A stretch of 22,855 nt of DNA, taken from assembly GCA_014730295.1 (NCBI GenBank), contig WJIN01000441.1:1-22855 (forward strand). The letters are read 5' to 3'. Position numbers and translations under genes: made by a program. Position 1 is the stretch's first letter. Each line of letters starts with the position of its first letter. Below, piece by piece: positions 3,965-13,785 of the stretch. The notes below the pieces were generated by a model. The model saw only the letters and a program-made list of their open reading frames with translations, had not been told where the DNA came from and searched no databases. Source of the stretch: Promethearchaeota archaeon. GTDB taxonomy: Archaea; Asgardarchaeota; Lokiarchaeia; Sigynarchaeales; SOKP01.

Positions 3965-5311
3965 TTACTCTAAATCGCTAAATATTAAATCTATTTCACT
4001 AATTAAATTGGAAATATCAATCGTTTTTTGTTCCTCTGAAACCATATTCTTGATTGTGACCTTTTTTTCTTCCATTTCTTTAGGGCCTATTATGAGAGAG
4101 ATAGATACACCCAAGTCGTTTGCTTTACTTAGTTGATTTCCAAGATTTTCAAACCGATAATCTATCATACATGCGAAGTCATTTTTTCTAATTATATTTG
4201 ATATTTCAAAGACATATGGAGCCACTTTCTTATCAATATTTGCGATATAGACGACTTCCGAATAGTCTGGTTCGCTTATCTCTTCCGGTAATAGTCCATA
4301 AGTTCTGAGAAACAATTCTAACATCAATAAACCCATACCAAATCCTATACCCGACATTTGTTCATCTGAGTATAATGAAAGCAGATCATCATATCTCCCA
4401 CCTCCAAATATTGCCCGAATATTCTCCTCTCCTGTATCAAATACTTCAAAAACAGTCCCTGTATAATAATCTAAACCTCTTACTACTCCAGACGAAAATG
4501 AACAAAACTCTGACAGATTTGCCTGATCAATCAATTTCTCTAAGGTTTTTAGCTCTTGATATCCGTTTGAATCATAGAATTCCGAAGGGATGTCGTCAAA
4601 ACTCTCGATAAGATCGTCTAAATTATCAGCGTCTCTAAGTTTTTTAATCCCTCGGATTACATATTCATTTTTAAAGGAATCTATGAGATATTTTTCGAAT
4701 TCCGATTCCTCCATTTTATCTGCTTTATCCAATATAGTATAGACTTGTTGGACTTTTTCTCCGGGAATATCCAATATTATTTCGCAGACCGCATCAATAA
4801 ATCTACGATTATTGAAATATATCTGAAATTGCTCGGAGGTCGCCCCAAAATTTGTGAGTATGTCCACCACGATATTTATGATCTCCAATTCGGCATAGAG
4901 GGTATCTTCGCCCAAGATGTCGATGTTGTATTGCAGAAATTCTCTCCTCCTTCCTTTCTGGGGTTGTTCATATCTATAGCATTTCGGGATCGAATACCAT
5001 CGAATGGGTTTTTTAAGTTCTTGACTCTTTTTTGCCACCATTCGGGCTAAAGTCGGGGTAATTTCGGGGCGAAGAATTAATCGTTCCCCGACCTTTTTCT
5101 CAACGATAAATGATTGTTCATTGACCAATTCAGTGGATGATTTTGCTTCGTAAATTTCAATAGGCTCGAGTAGAGGGGCGTCAAATTCTTCATAACAATA
5201 AAGTTCTGAAATTTCTCTTAACATATCGGTAATGTAATTAACCACTCGCATATCAGAAGGAAAAAAATCATCCATCCCTTTGATTGGGTCTCGTGAAAAT
5301 TTCTTAGACAT
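3965..5311 (-). CDS. hisS: Histidine--tRNA ligase
   Basis: Class II aminoacyl-tRNA synthetase that charges tRNA-His; 448 residues, normal for the family. Motif 2 is visible as RPEITP (81-86) followed by KCYRYEQPQKGRRREF (about 110-125). The histidine-specific signatures are GLDYYTGTVFEVF (from 279) and GGGRYDDLL (303-311), and motif 3 is GIGFGMGLLML (about 321-331). A C-terminal anticodon-binding domain runs from about 355 to the end. ATG 5311 is the better start: it has GGTGA seven bases upstream, while a TTG one codon earlier does not fit that spacing. It probably has its own promoter in the 300-bp gap to its right, and the polyferredoxin gene follows 77 bp downstream. Confidence 0.96.
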   Translation of the reverse strand: MSKKFSRDPIKGMDDFFPSDMRVVNYITDMLREISELYCYEEFDAPLLEPIEIYEAKSSTELVNEQSFIVEKKVGERLILRPEITPTLARMVAKKSQELKKPIRWYSIPKCYRYEQPQKGRRREFLQYNIDILGEDTLYAELEIINIVVDILTNFGATSEQFQIYFNNRRFIDAVCEIILDIPGEKVQQVYTILDKADKMEESEFEKYLIDSFKNEYVIRGIKKLRDADNLDDLIESFDDIPSEFYDSNGYQELKTLEKLIDQANLSEFCSFSSGVVRGLDYYTGTVFEVFDTGEENIRAIFGGGRYDDLLSLYSDEQMSGIGFGMGLLMLELFLRTYGLLPEEISEPDYSEVVYIANIDKKVAPYVFEISNIIRKNDFACMIDYRFENLGNQLSKANDLGVSISLIIGPKEMEEKKVTIKNMVSEEQKTIDISNLISEIDLIFSDLE

Positions 5312-5535
5312 CAATTATTCACCAATATCTATTTTAGGTTAAATAATGAAAAGAAGGTTTCAAAATATTTTTTATGATTATTAAACTCTCTTAAAATATT
5401 ATTAGTCTGAAATTAAAGTCTATGATTCTCAAAGATATTGCTAATTTCCTCATGATAGTTGATGAAAATCTTATAATTTTTATAAAAATCATTTTAAAAG
5501 GGAGAATTCCTAGTTTATTTAGGTATATTCCTAAT

Positions 5536-5561
5536 TTAAGGTGGAAAAAACTGCACCTTAA
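5536..5561. promoter_or_regulatory. Perfect 8-bp inverted repeat upstream of a TATA box
   Basis: TTAAGGTG and CACCTTAA flank a 10-nt spacer. The repeat lies directly before a TTTTTAAATA box (about 5564-5573) that could serve the gene starting at 5623. The position fits an operator or activator site at the TFB-recognition side of the promoter. It is followed by a short T-run, so a terminator hairpin is an alternative, but no plus-strand gene ends nearby. Confidence 0.45.
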
Positions 5562-5563
5562 GT

Positions 5564-5573
5564 CTTTTTAAAT
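5564..5573 (+). promoter_or_regulatory. TATA box for the 5623 gene
   Basis: TTTTTAAATA, about 50 bp before ATG 5623, which would give a leader of roughly 25-30 nt. The same sequence precedes the paralogous gene at 6352. Confidence 0.45.
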
Positions 5574-5622
5574 AGGATCTGTTTTGAAAAGATAAGGAAA
5601 TTTAATATAAAGTGATTTAAAA

Positions 5623-6177
5623 ATGGTATCTAAAAAAGTAATTGGGGGAATAATTGCCGTTGTAGCAGTTGTTTCGGTGATCGCGTTAATTCCAGTATTT
5701 ATGTATGGATTTGGAGTAAATACGGTCCAAGTAAATACAGGATTTGGAGTCACTGGCATTAGCTCCTCCATTGCAGAGGGAGGATATGAAACACAAGCAT
5801 CGGGCACAGGGGGAACTATTACTGCTGAGCAACAAACGGTTGATCCATATAGTTATTTCTTCAGAGGATTCAGCAACCACGCGTCAGTCTCACGACAAGG
5901 AACTACTCCGATTGATATAGATCTTTCTATAAGTATTTTTATAGATTTGGATATTTTAACTCCAGCGGGATCGATAAATAGAACTATTACCATAGACAGC
6001 GTACAAGATATCGTAGATGGGGCAATTAATGTAGAGGTAGGACCAGATCATGGCGCAATAGTAAATGGAACGTACTCTATATGGTTATACATAGAAATTA
6101 GTGTTAGCAGCTCTTTTTTCGATGATTTTTCCTTCAATTTTACCCTCTCTGGTACGGTTGATGTTTCTATTCCATAA
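5623..6177 (+). CDS. Membrane-anchored extracellular small protein, paralogue A
   Basis: A 184-residue protein. Lysines at the N-terminus are followed by one hydrophobic helix (about residues 5-27) ending in IALIPVFMYG. The remainder is Ser/Thr/Gly-rich and beta-prone with N-glycosylation sequons (for example NRT, NGT, NFT), so it is probably exported and tethered by an uncleaved N-terminal anchor. The first 29 residues nearly repeat those of the next gene, and the two share the order anchor, low-complexity linker, YxYxF motif, beta-rich domain. No known family is recognised. It is the first of two tandem paralogues before a transmembrane regulator. Confidence 0.65.
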   Translation: MVSKKVIGGIIAVVAVVSVIALIPVFMYGFGVNTVQVNTGFGVTGISSSIAEGGYETQASGTGGTITAEQQTVDPYSYFFRGFSNHASVSRQGTTPIDIDLSISIFIDLDILTPAGSINRTITIDSVQDIVDGAINVEVGPDHGAIVNGTYSIWLYIEISVSSSFFDDFSFNFTLSGTVDVSIP

Positions 6178-6194
6178 GTTTTACTAAAAAAACT

Positions 6195-6225
6195 CACTCC
6201 TTTTTTTTTAATTATTTTTTTCTCA
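6195..6225 (+). terminator. T-run terminator after paralogue A
   Basis: Two T-runs (ten and seven T) follow the stop at 6177 with no strong hairpin, which fits archaeal intrinsic termination. Confidence 0.4.
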
Positions 6226-6279
6226 TATTTAATTTAATTTTCAATAAAAATTGAAATGGAAAATACCATACCTCAATGA

Positions 6280-6289
6280 TTTTTAAATA
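6280..6289 (+). promoter_or_regulatory. TATA box for the 6352 gene
   Basis: TTTTTAAATA, identical to the box of the upstream paralogue and about 63-72 bp before the ATG, giving a leader of about 40 nt. The inverted repeat seen upstream of the first paralogue is not repeated here. Confidence 0.4.
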
Positions 6290-6351
6290 AAATTATTTCT
6301 ATATATACAGAAGTACTTATTTATCAAAAAAATAAAGGTAGAATAACTAAA

Positions 6352-6924
6352 ATGCCAAAGAAAAAAGTAATTGGCGGAATAATAGCTGCTGCAGCATTAA
6401 TCTCAGTGATCGCGCTAATTCCGGTTTTTATGTATGGAGTTTCTGTGAATGCAACGGAAGTAGAAATAGGAATGAGTATGGGTGGATCAACAAGCACCTC
6501 AAGCATTTCAGTATCCTCAATTGAAGTTAATCAAGCACCATCTTTTAATCCAGAAACATCGGGTGAAGACGTGAAACAGAGAGCAATAAGCGCGTACGAA
6601 TATTTATTTAGTAAATTTGGAGGTCCAGCTAGCATTTCTGAGCAATCTGGATCTGTGGGTGGAAATTATGTTGATATTCAAATCACATTCAATTTAACAA
6701 CTCCTAGCAATAAATCAGTTGTGTTTGAATTTAGTCCACAAGATCTTAATGCTGAAGGGTTGAAAGTATCTTTACTGCTTGGACCCGACGAACTAAATGG
6801 AGAAACAGGAACTTTTCATTTAGAAATAACGATTAGCATAAAAATAACGGTAACTGGGTTTGGTACTATTGTCGATGAAACCTTAACTCCTGTGAATTTA
6901 GACTTTACAGTTCCAGCAGCATAA
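6352..6924 (+). CDS. Membrane-anchored extracellular small protein, paralogue B
   Basis: A 190-residue protein beginning with a short lysine patch and a hydrophobic helix (about residues 5-27) nearly identical to that of the gene at 5623: KKVIGGIIA, then SVIALIPVFMYG. A Ser/Thr-rich linker (about 38-75), YEYLFSKFG (about 83-91) and a beta-rich C-terminal domain with sequons (NLT, NKS) follow. The C-terminal domains of the two paralogues are clearly diverged, while the anchors are conserved at both protein and DNA level. Probably on the outer face of the membrane. No family is recognised. Confidence 0.65.
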   Translation: MPKKKVIGGIIAAAALISVIALIPVFMYGVSVNATEVEIGMSMGGSTSTSSISVSSIEVNQAPSFNPETSGEDVKQRAISAYEYLFSKFGGPASISEQSGSVGGNYVDIQITFNLTTPSNKSVVFEFSPQDLNAEGLKVSLLLGPDELNGETGTFHLEITISIKITVTGFGTIVDETLTPVNLDFTVPAA

Positions 6925-6950
6925 ATTTTTAAAAAAATTTTTTTTTTAAT
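6925..6950 (+). terminator. T-run terminator after paralogue B
   Basis: A short A/T hairpin-like stretch and a run of about ten T directly follow the stop codon at 6922-6924. Confidence 0.4.
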
Positions 6951-7033
6951 TCAGATTTCTTAATTTTTATAAAATGGTGGAGAAAAATATACCTATATTG
7001 TTAAAAATATTTACTTCGTTAATCTTAATAGGG

Positions 7034-7043
7034 AATATATAAT
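7034..7043 (+). promoter_or_regulatory. TATA box for the transmembrane regulator gene
   Basis: AATATATAAT lies about 35 bp before ATG 7075, so the leader would be about 10 nt or absent. No ribosome binding site is visible before the ATG. Confidence 0.4.
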
Positions 7044-7074
7044 CACAAATTCGCTTTAATTTTGATAACTTAAT

Positions 7075-8337
7075 ATGACAAAATTTAATAAAAAGCTATT
7101 TGTATTATTGGTGGCTCTTTCATCAGGAATTCTAATGGGAATTCCGAACCAATCAAAAGCAAATGGAGGTCCACCTTATAATATAACCATTCAACCAAAT
7201 AACTATTTTAATATTACATACTCTTATGATTACTCACCTTTCGATTTAGTATTTAATTTCAATCTATCTACTAATGTATATACAGATTTATCCTTGGATT
7301 TTAACCTAACATATCCTCTGCTTACTTCAAGACAGATTTATCTCGAAATTAATGCCAATGAAGATGTCGAAATAGAATTTAAAGGTCTGTTTGATATTGA
7401 GGGATTTATTGAGGATTTGCCAGAAAATCCGACATTTGAAGACATCATCTTGGGATTTAACTATAATAGTTTTTATAGAATTAAATCGAATACTACCATT
7501 TCTGAGTTAAAATTTAGATTCATTAAATCTCCATTATTTGGATTTCAAGGTGACAATAATTATTCTATAGGTTTTTATAAAGGCAATCTAAATGGAAATC
7601 CAGAATTAATATTAACAACAGAAAGAGAAGGAGCAGGTATTGAATATCTAGAAGGAGAGATAGAAAATTTTGAAGAAGAGTCAGATTATTATATTTCTGT
7701 TTATGAAATTGAAACTAACCCAATTAATCCTCCTAATTACTTTTGGATATGGATTATCGTTCCAATTATTTTAGGATTTATAGCCATAATAATTGTAATG
7801 ACCAAAAAAGATTATATAGAGAGAATGAAGCGGCGAAATGTTAATATTGACAAAGGTTCCCATCGATTAGATATTGAAGAGGTACTGGAAAATGAAAATC
7901 GGAGTAAAATTATTGATTTAATTTTAGAGGAACCTGGAATTCATTTCAATGAATTATTACGAAAGACAGAACTTGCCCCCGGAAATCTGGTTTGGCATCT
8001 TGACATCTTGGAGACCTATAAAGTAATCAAGAAGAAGAGAGTGGGTAATTATGTCATGTTTATCCCATATTATAATAAAAATCCTCTCTCGAATATCAAT
8101 TTAAAATTACAGAAAAGTGAGCTTACTTTACAAATACTCGAGTCGATTGAGGAAAATCCCGGAATCTGGAATAGCAAATTAACAGATGAGATGGAAATCC
8201 ATCGAAAAACCATTCAATATCATATTGATAAATTAATTGATTTAGGACTCATATATAAGAAAAAAGAAGGGAGCAAAAAGAAGATTTATCCAAACTTGAA
8301 GGCGGACTATTATGAGGATAAAACCATAAAAGATTAG
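7075..8337 (+). CDS. Transmembrane regulator: extracellular sensor plus two winged helix-turn-helix domains
   Basis: A 420-residue one-component membrane regulator. Signal-peptide-like N-terminus (about 1-29), an extracellular beta-rich domain (about 30-220) with many sequons, one membrane helix (222-242, WIWIIVPIILGFIAIII), then a basic cytoplasmic stretch and two winged-helix domains at about 276-330 and 350-405. Each has the archaeal pattern 'EEPGIHFNELLRKT...WHLDILE' or 'ENPGIWNSKLTDEM...YHIDKLI'. Such proteins are taken to sense an outside signal and bind DNA at the membrane. It lies directly downstream of the two anchored small proteins, in the same direction, so it may control them or sense the same surface state; that link is inference. 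The start is ATG 7075. Confidence 0.75.
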   Translation: MTKFNKKLFVLLVALSSGILMGIPNQSKANGGPPYNITIQPNNYFNITYSYDYSPFDLVFNFNLSTNVYTDLSLDFNLTYPLLTSRQIYLEINANEDVEIEFKGLFDIEGFIEDLPENPTFEDIILGFNYNSFYRIKSNTTISELKFRFIKSPLFGFQGDNNYSIGFYKGNLNGNPELILTTEREGAGIEYLEGEIENFEEESDYYISVYEIETNPINPPNYFWIWIIVPIILGFIAIIIVMTKKDYIERMKRRNVNIDKGSHRLDIEEVLENENRSKIIDLILEEPGIHFNELLRKTELAPGNLVWHLDILETYKVIKKKRVGNYVMFIPYYNKNPLSNINLKLQKSELTLQILESIEENPGIWNSKLTDEMEIHRKTIQYHIDKLIDLGLIYKKKEGSKKKIYPNLKADYYEDKTIKD

Positions 8338-8366
8338 GTTTAAATTCCTTAACTCAATCAGTTCCG

Positions 8367-9671
8367 CTACTTAAATGGATTTTTGTCTTCTAAAATTTTC
8401 TCCTGATATTTTATCAGGGAGGGAGGACATAAACCCTTTTCTGTAGCTATTTTCTTAAGTTGTTTCATCATCTCTGCCAAATCAACTCCTGCAGGACACC
8501 AATTCGTACAGTTTGCACATCCCGTGCACAAGAATAACCCATCTTTAACTGCTTCTTCAATTCCGTTGTGAATATAATCGCGAACTATGTTCAGGCCTCC
8601 AATTCCATATTTTGACGCATAAATATTACCAAATGCCCGACTCGCGGTACAGACAAAATCGCAAGACTTACACGAAATGCATTTAAGCATATCTTTATAG
8701 AACAGATTTTTTTTCGCAGCTTCATTACGCCAATCATCCACTAATATAACTACAACTTCCTTAGCACCATACATCCCAAAAACCCGTGTGCCTTGAATAT
8801 CGGAAGTACTTGATGGAGATGAGATGAAACTGATATATCCCGCATCCACATTCGTGATCCGTTCTTGAAGTTTTGCCACCATAAAAGCGTCAAATTCATC
8901 TGGTACGATTTTTGAGATTCCCGCTACTACAATATGTTTATCCACGGCTCTCGTCAATATACTTATGTTTCCCTCATTTTCTAAGAGCACTATTGAGCCA
9001 TCATGAGCTGAAATCGCATTTGCGGAAGTTAAAGAAATTTTCACATCGTTCAAGAGTTCAGGTCGATAAGTTTTTCGATAATATTTCACAATTGCCTCGG
9101 CTTTTGGTTCCACTTCAACGCCATGTTTTTCTTTGATTTTGGCTACAATTTCTTGTTCGGTAAATTGAACTCCAGGAGCTAAGGTAAAACTTGGATGTTC
9201 GTACTCAAAGAGTTGACATAAAACATCCCCAAGGTCAGTTTCCTTTATCTCAATATTATTTTTCTTTAAAACATCTATTATTCCCGCATCTTTAGCTTCT
9301 AGAGATTTCGATTTATAAATTACTTTTGAGTCTCCTATTTCTTTCATGAAAGCCTCTTTTGCCTCCTCGTTAGTCTTTGCATAATAGACCTTGAATTTAT
9401 TGGTCTTTTCCATCACATTAATGCACTGGTCCACATATTTATCAATGTTTTCAATTAATTTCTCTTTAGCCTCGATCATTGCGGGTTTATATTTTTCCAC
9501 ATATTCCCTGCTGGTATCTTCATAGAGATATCGTAAATCAAACGATCGATATTTTCCAATACATGCCAATCTCCATATATCCGCAAATTTAGCGTAAATT
9601 GAGTTCTCATCTTTGAGACTTTCAACTTGTTCTTGCACTTCCTCATACAATTCTTTTCCTTTTTCACTCAT
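8367..9671 (-). CDS. LUD-domain [4Fe-4S] protein, LutB/LldF-like
   Basis: A 434-residue protein with an N-terminal helical region, a LUD domain (about residues 65-310, including ISAHDGSIVLLENEGN) and two [4Fe-4S] sites at C331/334/337/341 (CISCKSCDFVC) and C382/385/388/392 (CTGCANCTNWCP). This is the layout of LutB/LldF, the iron-sulfur subunit of the lactate-utilisation complex. The first cluster motif lacks the usual Pro after the fourth Cys. The gene follows, and overlaps by 8 bp (ATGAGTGA), the CCG-domain gene, so the two are translationally coupled and probably form a complex. A flavin-containing lactate or glycolate dehydrogenase subunit is not in the window. The substrate is therefore open: lactate or another 2-hydroxyacid, or a different reaction. 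Confidence 0.8.
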   Translation of the reverse strand: MSEKGKELYEEVQEQVESLKDENSIYAKFADIWRLACIGKYRSFDLRYLYEDTSREYVEKYKPAMIEAKEKLIENIDKYVDQCINVMEKTNKFKVYYAKTNEEAKEAFMKEIGDSKVIYKSKSLEAKDAGIIDVLKKNNIEIKETDLGDVLCQLFEYEHPSFTLAPGVQFTEQEIVAKIKEKHGVEVEPKAEAIVKYYRKTYRPELLNDVKISLTSANAISAHDGSIVLLENEGNISILTRAVDKHIVVAGISKIVPDEFDAFMVAKLQERITNVDAGYISFISSPSSTSDIQGTRVFGMYGAKEVVVILVDDWRNEAAKKNLFYKDMLKCISCKSCDFVCTASRAFGNIYASKYGIGGLNIVRDYIHNGIEEAVKDGLFLCTGCANCTNWCPAGVDLAEMMKQLKKIATEKGLCPPSLIKYQEKILEDKNPFK

Positions 9672-11045: not shown

Positions 11046-12227
11046 GTGACAAAAATTAGCTATAGTAATAATAAAAGATTTTTAAATCCCGGAAAGCATC
11101 TTATGATGGGAAATGAAGCGATGTCAGAAGGGGCTATTGCGGCGGGATGTACATATTTCGGAGGGTATCCCATTACACCAAGTACCGAAGTGATCGAACA
11201 TCTAGCGAAACGGCTTCCAGAGGTAGGAGGATGTTGCATGCAAATGGAGGATGAGCTAGCTTCAATAAATTCGGTAATTGGGGCATCATTGGCGGGAGCG
11301 AAGGCCATGACCGCAACCTCGGGTCCAGGATTATCTTTGATGGCAGAGACGATCTCCATGGCGGCAAATTTGGAGGTTCCTTTTGTATTCTGCGATGTCC
11401 AAAGGAATGGTCCGGGGACAGGGTATGTCACAGAACCACATCATAATGATATTGGTTTTGTTCGGTTTTCTGGCAATGGAGAATTCCAAGTAATAGCACT
11501 CGCACCGATGACATGTCAGGAATTATTCGATTTGACAATTACCGCATTTAATTTTGCAGAAAAGTTCCGGTGTCCCGTATTTATTTTGTCAGATGCCTAT
11601 TTAGGTCATCTACATGAAGTAGTACAAATTCCATCCCAAGAAGAGATTCTTGAACGTGTGGTAAAACGTGAATTGCCAGATGATACCTCAGGACGAATGT
11701 TCTCATATCAAGATAATGTTTCTGGAGAATATGTAATTCCAAAACCCCCCCAAATGGGGACTGAATATTGTCCCGGTCTTTTCATCCATCAACCGCACGG
11801 TCCGGACGGCTTACCCACTCCTAAACCGATGGATTTTATTAAGATGTTATTAGATAAAATAAAAGCAAATAAAGATGAAATATGTCTTACTGACACGTAT
11901 CAATTAGATGATGCTGAAATTTTAATCATTTCCTATGGTTTACCAGTAAGAGCGAGTTATAGAGCGGTTGATATCGCACGTAAGGATGGAATAAAAGTGG
12001 GTATACTTCGATTGATAACCGTATGGCCCTTACCCGAGGATCAAATAAAAGAAGCAGTTAAAGGTAAAAAAGCAGTTATAGTACCAGAATTGAATTATAC
12101 TGGATATATCGCGGAACAAGTGGAACGATTCACAGATTTAGAGGTTCCGGTGATAAGAATCCCTAATGTATGCGAGTTCCATCATCCAGATGAAATTTTA
12201 AAAAAAATAAAGGAGGTTGATGTATAA
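11046..12227 (+). CDS. korA: 2-oxoacid:ferredoxin oxidoreductase alpha subunit
   Basis: Alpha subunit of an oxidoreductase that decarboxylates a 2-oxoacid with CoA and reduces ferredoxin (2-oxoglutarate is the best guess; a branched-chain 2-oxoacid is possible). Visible family motifs are GNEAMSEGAIAAGC (22-35), GGYPITPSTEVIE (39-51), QMEDELASINSVIGAS, TATSGPGLSLM and DVQRNGPGTG in the pyrimidine-binding domain, then a C-terminal domain with ILRLITVWPLPEDQI. GTG 11046 yields 393 residues, but that GTG lies inside AGAGGTGAC, itself a strong ribosome binding site match. An ATT four bases downstream (11055) would give a start three residues shorter. It follows korD by 2 bp and leads into korB. 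Confidence 0.9.
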   Translation: MTKISYSNNKRFLNPGKHLMMGNEAMSEGAIAAGCTYFGGYPITPSTEVIEHLAKRLPEVGGCCMQMEDELASINSVIGASLAGAKAMTATSGPGLSLMAETISMAANLEVPFVFCDVQRNGPGTGYVTEPHHNDIGFVRFSGNGEFQVIALAPMTCQELFDLTITAFNFAEKFRCPVFILSDAYLGHLHEVVQIPSQEEILERVVKRELPDDTSGRMFSYQDNVSGEYVIPKPPQMGTEYCPGLFIHQPHGPDGLPTPKPMDFIKMLLDKIKANKDEICLTDTYQLDDAEILIISYGLPVRASYRAVDIARKDGIKVGILRLITVWPLPEDQIKEAVKGKKAVIVPELNYTGYIAEQVERFTDLEVPVIRIPNVCEFHHPDEILKKIKEVDV

Positions 12228-12228
12228 T

Positions 12229-13152
12229 ATGTCAGGAATAGGCCCTATGTACCCACAGGAGAAACCAGAACACCCCTATTTAGAAAGTTCATATGCAGGA
12301 AATCTGTTAGGGAATTACTCATCACGATTCTGTGCTGGATGCGGATATGGTATTATCGGGCAATTATATACAAGAGTATTTGAAGACGAGAATTTGGACC
12401 CTAAAAAGTTTCCATTAATCGTGGGGATAGGATGTTATTCCCAAATCATGCTAATAGTACATTATTCGGCTCAGAAAATACTTACTTTACATGGACGTGC
12501 TCCTGCAATCGCAACCGGTATTAAGATGGCAAATCCAAACATGAAACCTATTATTTTTTCGGGAGATGGAGACTCATTAGGAATTGGGGGGAATCATTTT
12601 ATACACATGTGTAGGAGAAACCTCGACGCAATAATATTTATCTTTAATAATAGCATATACGCAATGACTGGAGGGCAAGGAGCACCTACGACATTATGGG
12701 GTGCAAAAAGTACTACTACACCATATAAAATGTTCGAAAATCGAATGGACGGCGTAGAGTTGGCTTTAGCAGCGGGAGCAGCCTATGTGGCAAGAACAAC
12801 AGTAGCCCATCCAAGAACCTTCCAGAAATATTTCAAAAAGGCAATTCGACACAAAGGAACTTCTGTAATTGAGGTGATCACCCCATGTGTGACCTACTTT
12901 GGAAGAAAAAATGTAAACACCTTAGGATCTGAATATTCTGAAGCTCTGGAACAAGGAGAAAAAATGGACAATGCAGGAAAAATGATAGATTGGATAAAGA
13001 AGAATACCGTAAGAAGAAACCAAGCGAAATTTATGACAGAAGAGGAGTTATTTAATAAATATGTAATCGGAGAATTCAGATATGAGCCCGATAAGCCAGA
13101 ATATTCAGAACAATATGATGAGATAAAGAAAGTCGCTCAAGGGAGGAAATAG
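12229..13152 (+). CDS. korB: 2-oxoacid:ferredoxin oxidoreductase beta (TPP-binding) subunit
   Basis: Beta subunit that binds thiamine diphosphate and the proximal [4Fe-4S] cluster. From ATG 12229 it has 307 residues, with CAGCGYG (35-41) for the cluster together with C69 and C-terminal cysteines, the TPP/Mg motif GDGDSLGIGGNHFIH (112-126) and NNSIYAMTGGQ (140-150). TPCVTYFGRKN further on is typical of KorB. GGAGGT (12212-12217) precedes it. Another in-frame ATG at 12220 lies only two bases after that site, so 12229 is preferred. It starts one base after the korA stop, as expected for coupled translation. Confidence 0.92.
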   Translation: MSGIGPMYPQEKPEHPYLESSYAGNLLGNYSSRFCAGCGYGIIGQLYTRVFEDENLDPKKFPLIVGIGCYSQIMLIVHYSAQKILTLHGRAPAIATGIKMANPNMKPIIFSGDGDSLGIGGNHFIHMCRRNLDAIIFIFNNSIYAMTGGQGAPTTLWGAKSTTTPYKMFENRMDGVELALAAGAAYVARTTVAHPRTFQKYFKKAIRHKGTSVIEVITPCVTYFGRKNVNTLGSEYSEALEQGEKMDNAGKMIDWIKKNTVRRNQAKFMTEEELFNKYVIGEFRYEPDKPEYSEQYDEIKKVAQGRK

Positions 13153-13155
13153 AAA

Positions 13156-13785
13156 ATGGCGAGATATGAGATTAGAATAATAGGATTTGGAGGGCAGGGT
13201 GTAATTACTCTTAGTAAAATGATCATAACAGCATCCTCCCTTTATGAGGGTCTTGCTGCTACCCAAACTGAAGCCTATAGTGCCGCGGCTAGAAAACTGT
13301 ATATATAATATAGTTTGGTCAAGGGCGGTAAATGTTGGGCAGAAGTAGTAGTAGATTTGGATAAAGAGCAAGACCTTATCGATTATCCAAAGGCCTTAGA
13401 ACCGTATGATTTCTTAATCGTGCTGTCTGATGAAGGTGCATCTGATATAAAAAAAAATCATCTGAAATCAGGCGATGATACGGGATATCTTATCTGGGAT
13501 ACATCCACGATTGGAAAATTTAGAACTGCTAAACGAGTAAAATCTCTGGGACTCCCCGTTCAAAAACTTTCCCTAGAAAAATTCGATAAAACAGTTTTTG
13601 GAAACGCGATTCTATTTGGTGCCTTCACGACGATCGCAAAAATTTTCTCAGAAGAGTCTGCTATCGAAACAATAAAACAATTTGTCCCCCCAGACACATT
13701 AGACACAAACTTGGAGGCTTTTGAACTCGGCAAGAAAGAAGCGGAGGAATTTCTCAGGAAATTAGATGAGAATGGAGGTAAATAA
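13156..13785 (+). CDS. korC: 2-oxoacid:ferredoxin oxidoreductase gamma subunit, interrupted by a 30-nt hairpin insert
   Basis: Gamma subunit of the oxidoreductase. ATG 13156, nine bases after GGAGG, opens with RIIGFGGQGVITLSKMI, the nucleotide-binding-like start of the family, and runs to TQTEAYSAAAR (residues 36-46). The family then continues with RGG, but here 30 extra bases (13294-13323) intervene and carry an in-frame TAA (13306-13308). From 13324 the same frame resumes with GGKCWAEVVVD and continues to a normal C-terminus at TAA 13783. Without the insert the protein is 199 residues, the usual size. As written, translation would give a 50-residue peptide and perhaps a separate 156-residue one from TTG 13315. 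Flanking operon genes look intact. It could be a recent pseudogene, a split gene, or a gene whose insert is bypassed or removed. Confidence 0.8.
13294..13323 (+). other. 30-nt hairpin-forming insert in korC
   Basis: The first 23 nt form a 9-bp stem (AAACTGTAT with ATATAGTTT, including one G-U pair) around a five-base ATATA loop. GGTCAAG then leads back into the korC frame. The insert lies between the Arg and the Gly-Gly of the conserved RGG motif and is exactly ten codons long, with TAA at its fifth codon. It does not form a canonical bulge-helix-bulge with its flanks. No identical take-off and landing codons lie 30 nt apart. Confidence 0.75.

Follow-up and report, generated by a model that had tools for sequence, protein, structure and literature searches.

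Predicted bulge-helix-bulge introns of about 30 nt in korC and other protein-coding genes of Lokiarchaeia

The window (the whole stretch of 22,855 nt that was analysed) carries korC at 13156-13785 on the forward strand, downstream of korA and korB. The features of this region are:

11046-12227, forward strand: korA, uninterrupted operon neighbour
12217-13152, forward strand: korB, uninterrupted operon neighbour
13156-13292, forward strand: korC exon 1 (codons 1-45 and two bases of codon 46); joined frame open and homologous
13293-13322, forward strand: predicted bulge-helix-bulge (BHB) intron of 30 nt, placed by the BHB cut rule; RGG restored exactly
13315-13317, forward strand: TTG inside the predicted intron, start of the database protein P0007 (156 aa)
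13323-13785, forward strand: korC exon 2; joined frame open and homologous

As written, the korC frame reads EAYSAAAR, then KLYI, a stop and YSLVK, then GGKCWAEV, and the stop codon (TAA) lies within a 30-nt insert. The stop-bearing insert described in the first-pass annotation proved real: removal of 30 nt from 13293 or 13294, which gives the same protein, left a single open frame of 199 aa with AAARGGKCW restored. Both flanks are normal family sequence, as had been stated, since 118 of the 120 homologues listed (439 in total) aligned full-length with the joined protein at 70–93% identity and 95–100% coverage. Two of the 120 were truncated, namely P0007 (the window's own protein) and P0117. 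The proposed gamma-subunit identity agreed with the family match (2-oxoacid:acceptor oxidoreductase gamma), yet the score was under the curated cut-offs. korA and korB were read without interruption, and the operon neighbours are intact as described earlier.

Databases carry exon-2 fragments of KorC that start inside the insert, P0007 (window 13315-13785) and P0117. Gene callers therefore misread such genes, and predicted protein sets are wrong at them. The start of P0007 at TTG 13315 was judged to be a gene-calling artefact.

The minimum free energy structure of 13279-13334 is a BHB of -17 kcal/mol (z -2.87). For 200 shuffles of the same segment the mean was -9.85 kcal/mol, and none was as stable. 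The earlier statement that no BHB splice site could be folded here was thus wrong. From outside to inside, the structure consists of an outer helix, a 3' bulge (AAGG), a central helix, a 5' bulge (AGA) and an inner hairpin:

13281-13286, forward strand: outer helix, exon-1 strand UGCCGC, paired with 13325-13330
13287-13290, forward strand: central 4-bp helix, exon strand GGCU, paired with 13317-13320
13291-13293, forward strand: 5' bulge AG^A, predicted cut after 13292
13294-13316, forward strand: inner 9-bp hairpin with 5-base loop at 13303-13307
13317-13320, forward strand: central helix, intron strand GGUC
13321-13324, forward strand: 3' bulge AA^GG of 4 nt, predicted cut after 13322
13325-13330, forward strand: outer helix, exon-2 strand GCGGUA

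The hairpin was as previously noted (9 bp including one G-U, 5-base loop). Cuts between 13292 and 13293 and between 13322 and 13323, i.e. between the second and third base of each bulge, give AG^G GGC GGT (Arg-Gly-Gly). EndA is described to cut at exactly this place in the bulge (excerpts of PMC2738675). The size of the insert and the resulting protein had been given correctly; its register had not, and the cut rule moved the bounds from 13294-13323 to 13293-13322. Bulge sizes in the window are 3 nt (5') and 4 nt (3'), where both are 3 nt in the canonical form, and the korC site is hence a relaxed BHB. Relaxed forms are treated as accepted members of the archaeal BHB introns (PMC6379350, in part).

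When both strands of the window were scanned for BHBs whose excision would join two open frames, the korC site ranked first with a score of 39 versus 28 for the next; with looser frame limits the scores were 39 and 32.5. Group I and group II catalytic RNA families gave no Rfam match in the window at gathering score. Spliceosomal introns end GT...AG; these ends are absent here, as the korC insert runs AA...AA.

For comparison of the same site in relatives, 38 korC loci (all Lokiarchaeota/Lokiarchaeia) were aligned by tblastn. The insert that the first-pass annotation had suggested looking for was present in two of them, L024 (AMARA_1S) and L031 (TEKIR_6S), each with 30 nt exactly at the RGG site. 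Hairpin sequences differed from that of the window and the architecture was the same. The central helix at RGG is UGCU/AGCA in both loci. The first central pair, read by hand, differs between the window (G-C) and L024 (U-A); both sides have changed, and the exon change is silent. Both loci also have a second korC insert at GGQ^GVI; it measures 30 nt in L024, and that of L031 has 29 nt and shifts the frame. P0117, from another assembly and 88% identical, starts at the same truncated point as P0007 (MVKGG), and we infer that the DNA encoding it carries the insert as well. P0001, which is 93% identical to the KorC of the window, lacks it. At E 1e-40, KorC was matched in 47 of 83 Lokiarchaeia genomes, with stops inside the match in only 2. 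A KorC tree (40 rows) required three changes of the intron label. By these comparisons the korC intron comes and goes, or has had multiple origins. G059 contig C31, considered as an exon-2-only korC, was rejected as a contig end.

For the search in other genes, about 0.95 Mb of G001 (the genome of L024, about 3.7 Mb) was scanned by structure and homology. Twelve introns were judged good by the restored motifs:

korC: two introns
Rpo1N: at GHFGH^IEL
CdhD: one intron
argininosuccinate synthase (ArgG): at SGGL^DTS
DeoC/LacD-family aldolase: at GVD^MGRN
uL11: at PPIGPAV^GPTG
MoxR-type AAA ATPase: one intron
B12-binding protein: at KPGL^DGHD
LeuRS: at GGIE^HAVMHL
TldD/PmbA: one intron
second POR-family gene, iorB-like: one intron

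Eight joined proteins (Rpo1N, uL11, MoxR, B12, iorB, TldD, ArgG and aldolase) were submitted for domain search, and the best Pfam domain spanned the junction in all eight. The strict structural scan missed the TldD and iorB introns, and homology recovered both. It also gave false positives, and L107(-)4629 and L115(-)9173 looked to be such once the frames were read. Many lower-ranked rows of the scans were assessed by eye only. Twelve introns in 0.95 Mb correspond to a floor of about 47 per G001 genome. The homology-covered DNA of G001 outside korC contained 3 introns in about 110 kb, corresponding to about 100 per genome with a very wide error. By the same homology test, with weak rows discounted on visual inspection, G028 had a single intron in 65 kb, and none turned up in 79 kb of G003 or in 451 kb of 34 further loci. 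A scan of 400 kb of G003 yielded no convincing intron.

Several further observations were made. L121(+)1474 is another candidate of the structural scan. The matches of L108 and L163 to a long protein of G001 (L126) are split and contain about 28 bases in excess, perhaps further introns. In G001, L131 had four Rfam matches to group II intron families within one 20-kb piece (4154-8652, reverse strand). ARAGORN found 1 tRNA in 55 loci of G001 and Rfam 1 in 280 kb; perhaps most tRNA genes of G001 are hidden by introns.

For the survey across the class, 83 Lokiarchaeia genomes were searched with KorC, aldolase, CdhD and LeuRS, and rows were flagged among the matches listed. Thirty flagged loci (aldolase, CdhD, LeuRS) were then subjected to spliced protein-to-DNA alignment blind to structure; it placed 33 introns, and 26 of the 30 loci had at least one. 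L219, L233, L234 and L252, flagged for stops or partial matches, had no intron by this alignment. A 4-bp BHB central helix at the protein-equivalent register was found at 30 of the 33 introns versus 240 of 5,913 (4.1%) shifted controls. When an inner helix of 4 bp or more without breaks was demanded in addition, the counts were 18/33 and 0/5,913. The LeuRS motif GYD^SFG was interrupted in at least 8 genomes (9 copies), with bulges of 3 and 3 nt, and the aldolase motif GVD^MGRN in at least 6 genomes, or 7 including G001. The most introns per gene were four (LeuRS of G039) and three (aldolase of G027). In the aldolase of G029 (L219), two nearby in-frame TAA codons occur without an insertion (GG, stop, Y, stop, KQ), by decay, error or something else.

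In total, at least 44 instances at about 22 positions were counted, in at least 21 of the 83 Lokiarchaeia genomes and the window, and removal restored the frame exactly in 11 conserved genes. Similar hairpins inside other genes, as sought by the first-pass annotation, are thus many in G001 and other Lokiarchaeia. Of these instances, 31 came from the structure-blind alignment and 13 from elsewhere. Seven of the 13 (G001 Rpo1N, CdhD, ArgG, aldolase, uL11, MoxR and B12 protein) were found by a scan that demanded a BHB, and the BHB of these seven therefore carries no independent weight. L223 aa 11 and L251 aa 750 were counted among the 33 and left out of the 44; the L031 RGG insert and the G002 TldD insert (both the same as in G001), the second Rpo1N interruption and the G027 MoxR insert were also left out. 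Lengths ranged from 28 to 36 nt, with 30 nt in 21 of the 44. Twenty-five were in-frame with a stop, 19 were frame-shifting and none was in-frame without a stop. The codon phases were 16/13/15. Five interruptions had no strict BHB:

G039 LeuRS, aa 327
G033 aldolase (L223), near codon 11: 30-nt insert at the gene start
G033 LeuRS, second copy, aa 750: 20 nt, perhaps an artefact
G027 MoxR
G001:C17 (L098) Rpo1N, DEDG^IPIPSG: second interruption, about 31 nt, with a 7-bp hairpin

Beyond the class, RpoB domain 6 was searched in 227 Asgard genomes (200 matched). Among the rows listed a single internal stop (G149) was present and the domain was otherwise uninterrupted; two genomes had two matches each. 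Aldolase homologues in 8 genomes outside Lokiarchaeia were full length and free of stops. The query LeuRS matched 50 of 195 genomes of the phylum, nearly all Lokiarchaeia (G187 lies outside the class set). Lokiarchaeia may have a LeuRS type of their own, and because the queried LeuRS was found almost only in this class, the phylum-level LeuRS search is uninformative for introns.

For covariation analysis, the seven aldolase introns at GVD^MGRN were compared. In total 96.8% of cells were paired, versus 24–48% in partner-slid controls, and 5 of 18 pairs had changed on both sides, one of these being an exon-intron pair. The covariation score was 0.312, a value attained by 1 of 500 shuffles; further pair types were not above the shuffles in these introns (436/500 as high). 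As the genomes are related, the shuffle counts are not probabilities. In LeuRS, 8 distinct 30-nt sequences pair at nearly every position with little two-sided variation.

Genes with core functions were compared between near relatives. uL11 gave a single match in G001 and in G030, each with an internal TAA, two fragments on one contig in G002 and one clean match in G003. Rpo1N was matched as two pieces in G001, a TAG lying in the larger one; in G002 it gave one match with 3 TAA, and in G003 and G030 it was clean. CdhD has an intron in G001 and an empty site in G002 (protein 97% identical) and G030 (95%), with 77/90 and 81/90 identical bases over the joined flanks, respectively. Empty sites of aldolase and korC in relatives also join at the predicted bases. 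No target duplication was seen at the empty and filled sites of CdhD, aldolase and korC. A supposed signature in the exon next to the aldolase intron (Lys replaced by Val) was rejected, because Val is usual in intron-less copies too. Judged from such site comparisons, mini-introns appear to be gained and lost between near relatives, and gain and loss are testable there, e.g. with CdhD of G001 versus G002 and G030.

EndA (PF01974) was matched in 82 of 83 Lokiarchaeia genomes, with two matches in 67, three in 1 and one in 14. RtcB was present in all 10 genomes searched. Of the two G001 copies, L205 has the EndA of Aeropyrum pernix (3p1z) as its nearest match and retains a His that is Ala in 3ajv. 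Copy L264 has Ser in place of the catalytic His of 1a79. The two copies fit a catalytic alpha and a structural beta subunit of a predicted (alpha-beta)2 EndA. By review, this enzyme type is tied to relaxed BHBs, M. kandleri excepted (PMC6379350, in part), and it has been tied to cbf5 introns (PMC2738675, in part). From these genes in relatives, we infer that EndA and RtcB are present in the window's own genome. In the proposed mechanism, exon and intron of the nascent korC mRNA would fold into the BHB. EndA, putatively of the two-gene (alpha-beta)2 type with broad specificity, would cut after 13292 and 13322. An RNA ligase, most likely RtcB, would join the exons to encode AAARGGKCW. The korC intron would then be one of a large population of mRNA mini-introns of 28-36 nt in Lokiarchaeia.

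Of the options listed in the first-pass annotation, removal at the RNA level as a mini-intron gained the best support, while bypassing, reinitiation and assembly error were disfavoured. The window's korC might be a pseudogene that a recent insertion has disrupted, in agreement with its in-frame stop and with the 93%-identical relative P0001 without insert. This is nevertheless very improbable: in L024 and L031 the same site holds a different hairpin of equal length and architecture, both korC flanks are still conserved, similar inserts are found in genes expected to be essential (uL11, Rpo1N, LeuRS), and BHB geometry is not favoured by simple decay. T4 gene 60 and the mitochondrial byps are small hairpin insertions in coding genes that are bypassed by ribosomes, and in such elements the take-off triplet matches the landing triplet. 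The Lokiarchaeia inserts, being small hairpins that translation of the gene would need to skip, resemble these elements, and ribosomes might bypass the korC hairpin likewise. Matching triplets giving the same protein occurred in 0 of the 44 inserts, which extends what had been stated for korC, and 19 of 44 are frame-shifting. Together with the use of all three codon phases and with exon-intron BHB pairing that is enriched and covarying, this makes bypassing less probable still.

A split subunit, with exon 2 made by reinitiation at TTG 13315, would explain the TTG after the stop and the start of P0117 with the same MVKGG. At the same site, however, L024 has no in-frame ATG, GTG or TTG between stop and exon 2, and other inserts break conserved motifs deep inside LeuRS, aldolase and CdhD; we give reinitiation hardly any credence. 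An assembly or sequencing error deserves equally little: BHB inserts are found again in 21 genomes, each assembled separately, where they lie at orthologous positions and covary in sequence, P0117 has the same truncated start, and the insert that L024 and L031 have at this korC site, with another hairpin, makes such an error unlikely.

The korC insert is thus very probably an mRNA mini-intron spliced by EndA and RtcB and belonging to a large Lokiarchaeia population, as judged from DNA comparisons. A wider picture is held only tentatively. Lineages rich in such elements may have genome-wide mRNA introns of about 30 nt (tens to about 100 per genome) that are still gained at new and recurrent sites, perhaps by EndA/RtcB reverse splicing of excised hairpins followed by recombination, and splicing of core genes may be pervasive there without a spliceosome. 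Few known organisms are closer to eukaryotes than the Lokiarchaea. If tRNA-type splicing is required in Lokiarchaeia for core genes (a ribosomal protein, an RNA polymerase subunit, a tRNA synthetase, central metabolic enzymes), intron-bearing core genes are possible without nucleus or spliceosome, which, if true, bears on arguments over introns in eukaryogenesis.

In the open-licence PMC literature (preprints and subscription papers lying outside this scope), no description of mRNA introns in Asgard archaea was found, including in the available parts of PMC11291895, PMC13149111, PMC12397907, PMC12872458 and PMC6379350. The room for something new that had been suspected does not lie in the chemistry; what is new is how many and how small the introns are, which genes carry them and how they are distributed. 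Unlike byps and T4 gene 60, the Lokiarchaeia inserts have no matching triplets, split codons in all phases and show BHB geometry. Archaeal tRNA BHB introns are abundant in the Asgard archaea Atabeyarchaeia and Freyarchaeia (PMC11291895, in part); splice motif and presumed enzymes are common to both systems, with tRNA genes concerned there and mRNA here. Putative introns of an archaeal virus, for which splicing was not demonstrated (PMC2738675, in part), are likewise very small and in protein-coding genes, but are 12 bp long and viral. Within the literature covered, just one archaeal pre-mRNA intron is described as confirmed, that of cbf5 in Crenarchaeota (PMC2738675, in part). The cbf5 introns occur in Desulfurococcales and Sulfolobales, are cut by EndA, often at a relaxed BHB, have been gained and lost between lineages, and their splicing was shown by cDNA (PMC2738675, in part). 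The Lokiarchaeia introns resemble them in BHB type, location in protein-coding mRNA, relaxed BHBs and gain and loss between lineages. They differ in that cbf5 introns concern one gene at one position with splicing shown by cDNA, whereas in Lokiarchaeia about 22 positions in 11 genes are affected, with up to four introns in one gene, mostly of 30 nt, and splicing is deduced from DNA. They are best read as a probable variant, on a much larger scale, of the crenarchaeal cbf5 introns.
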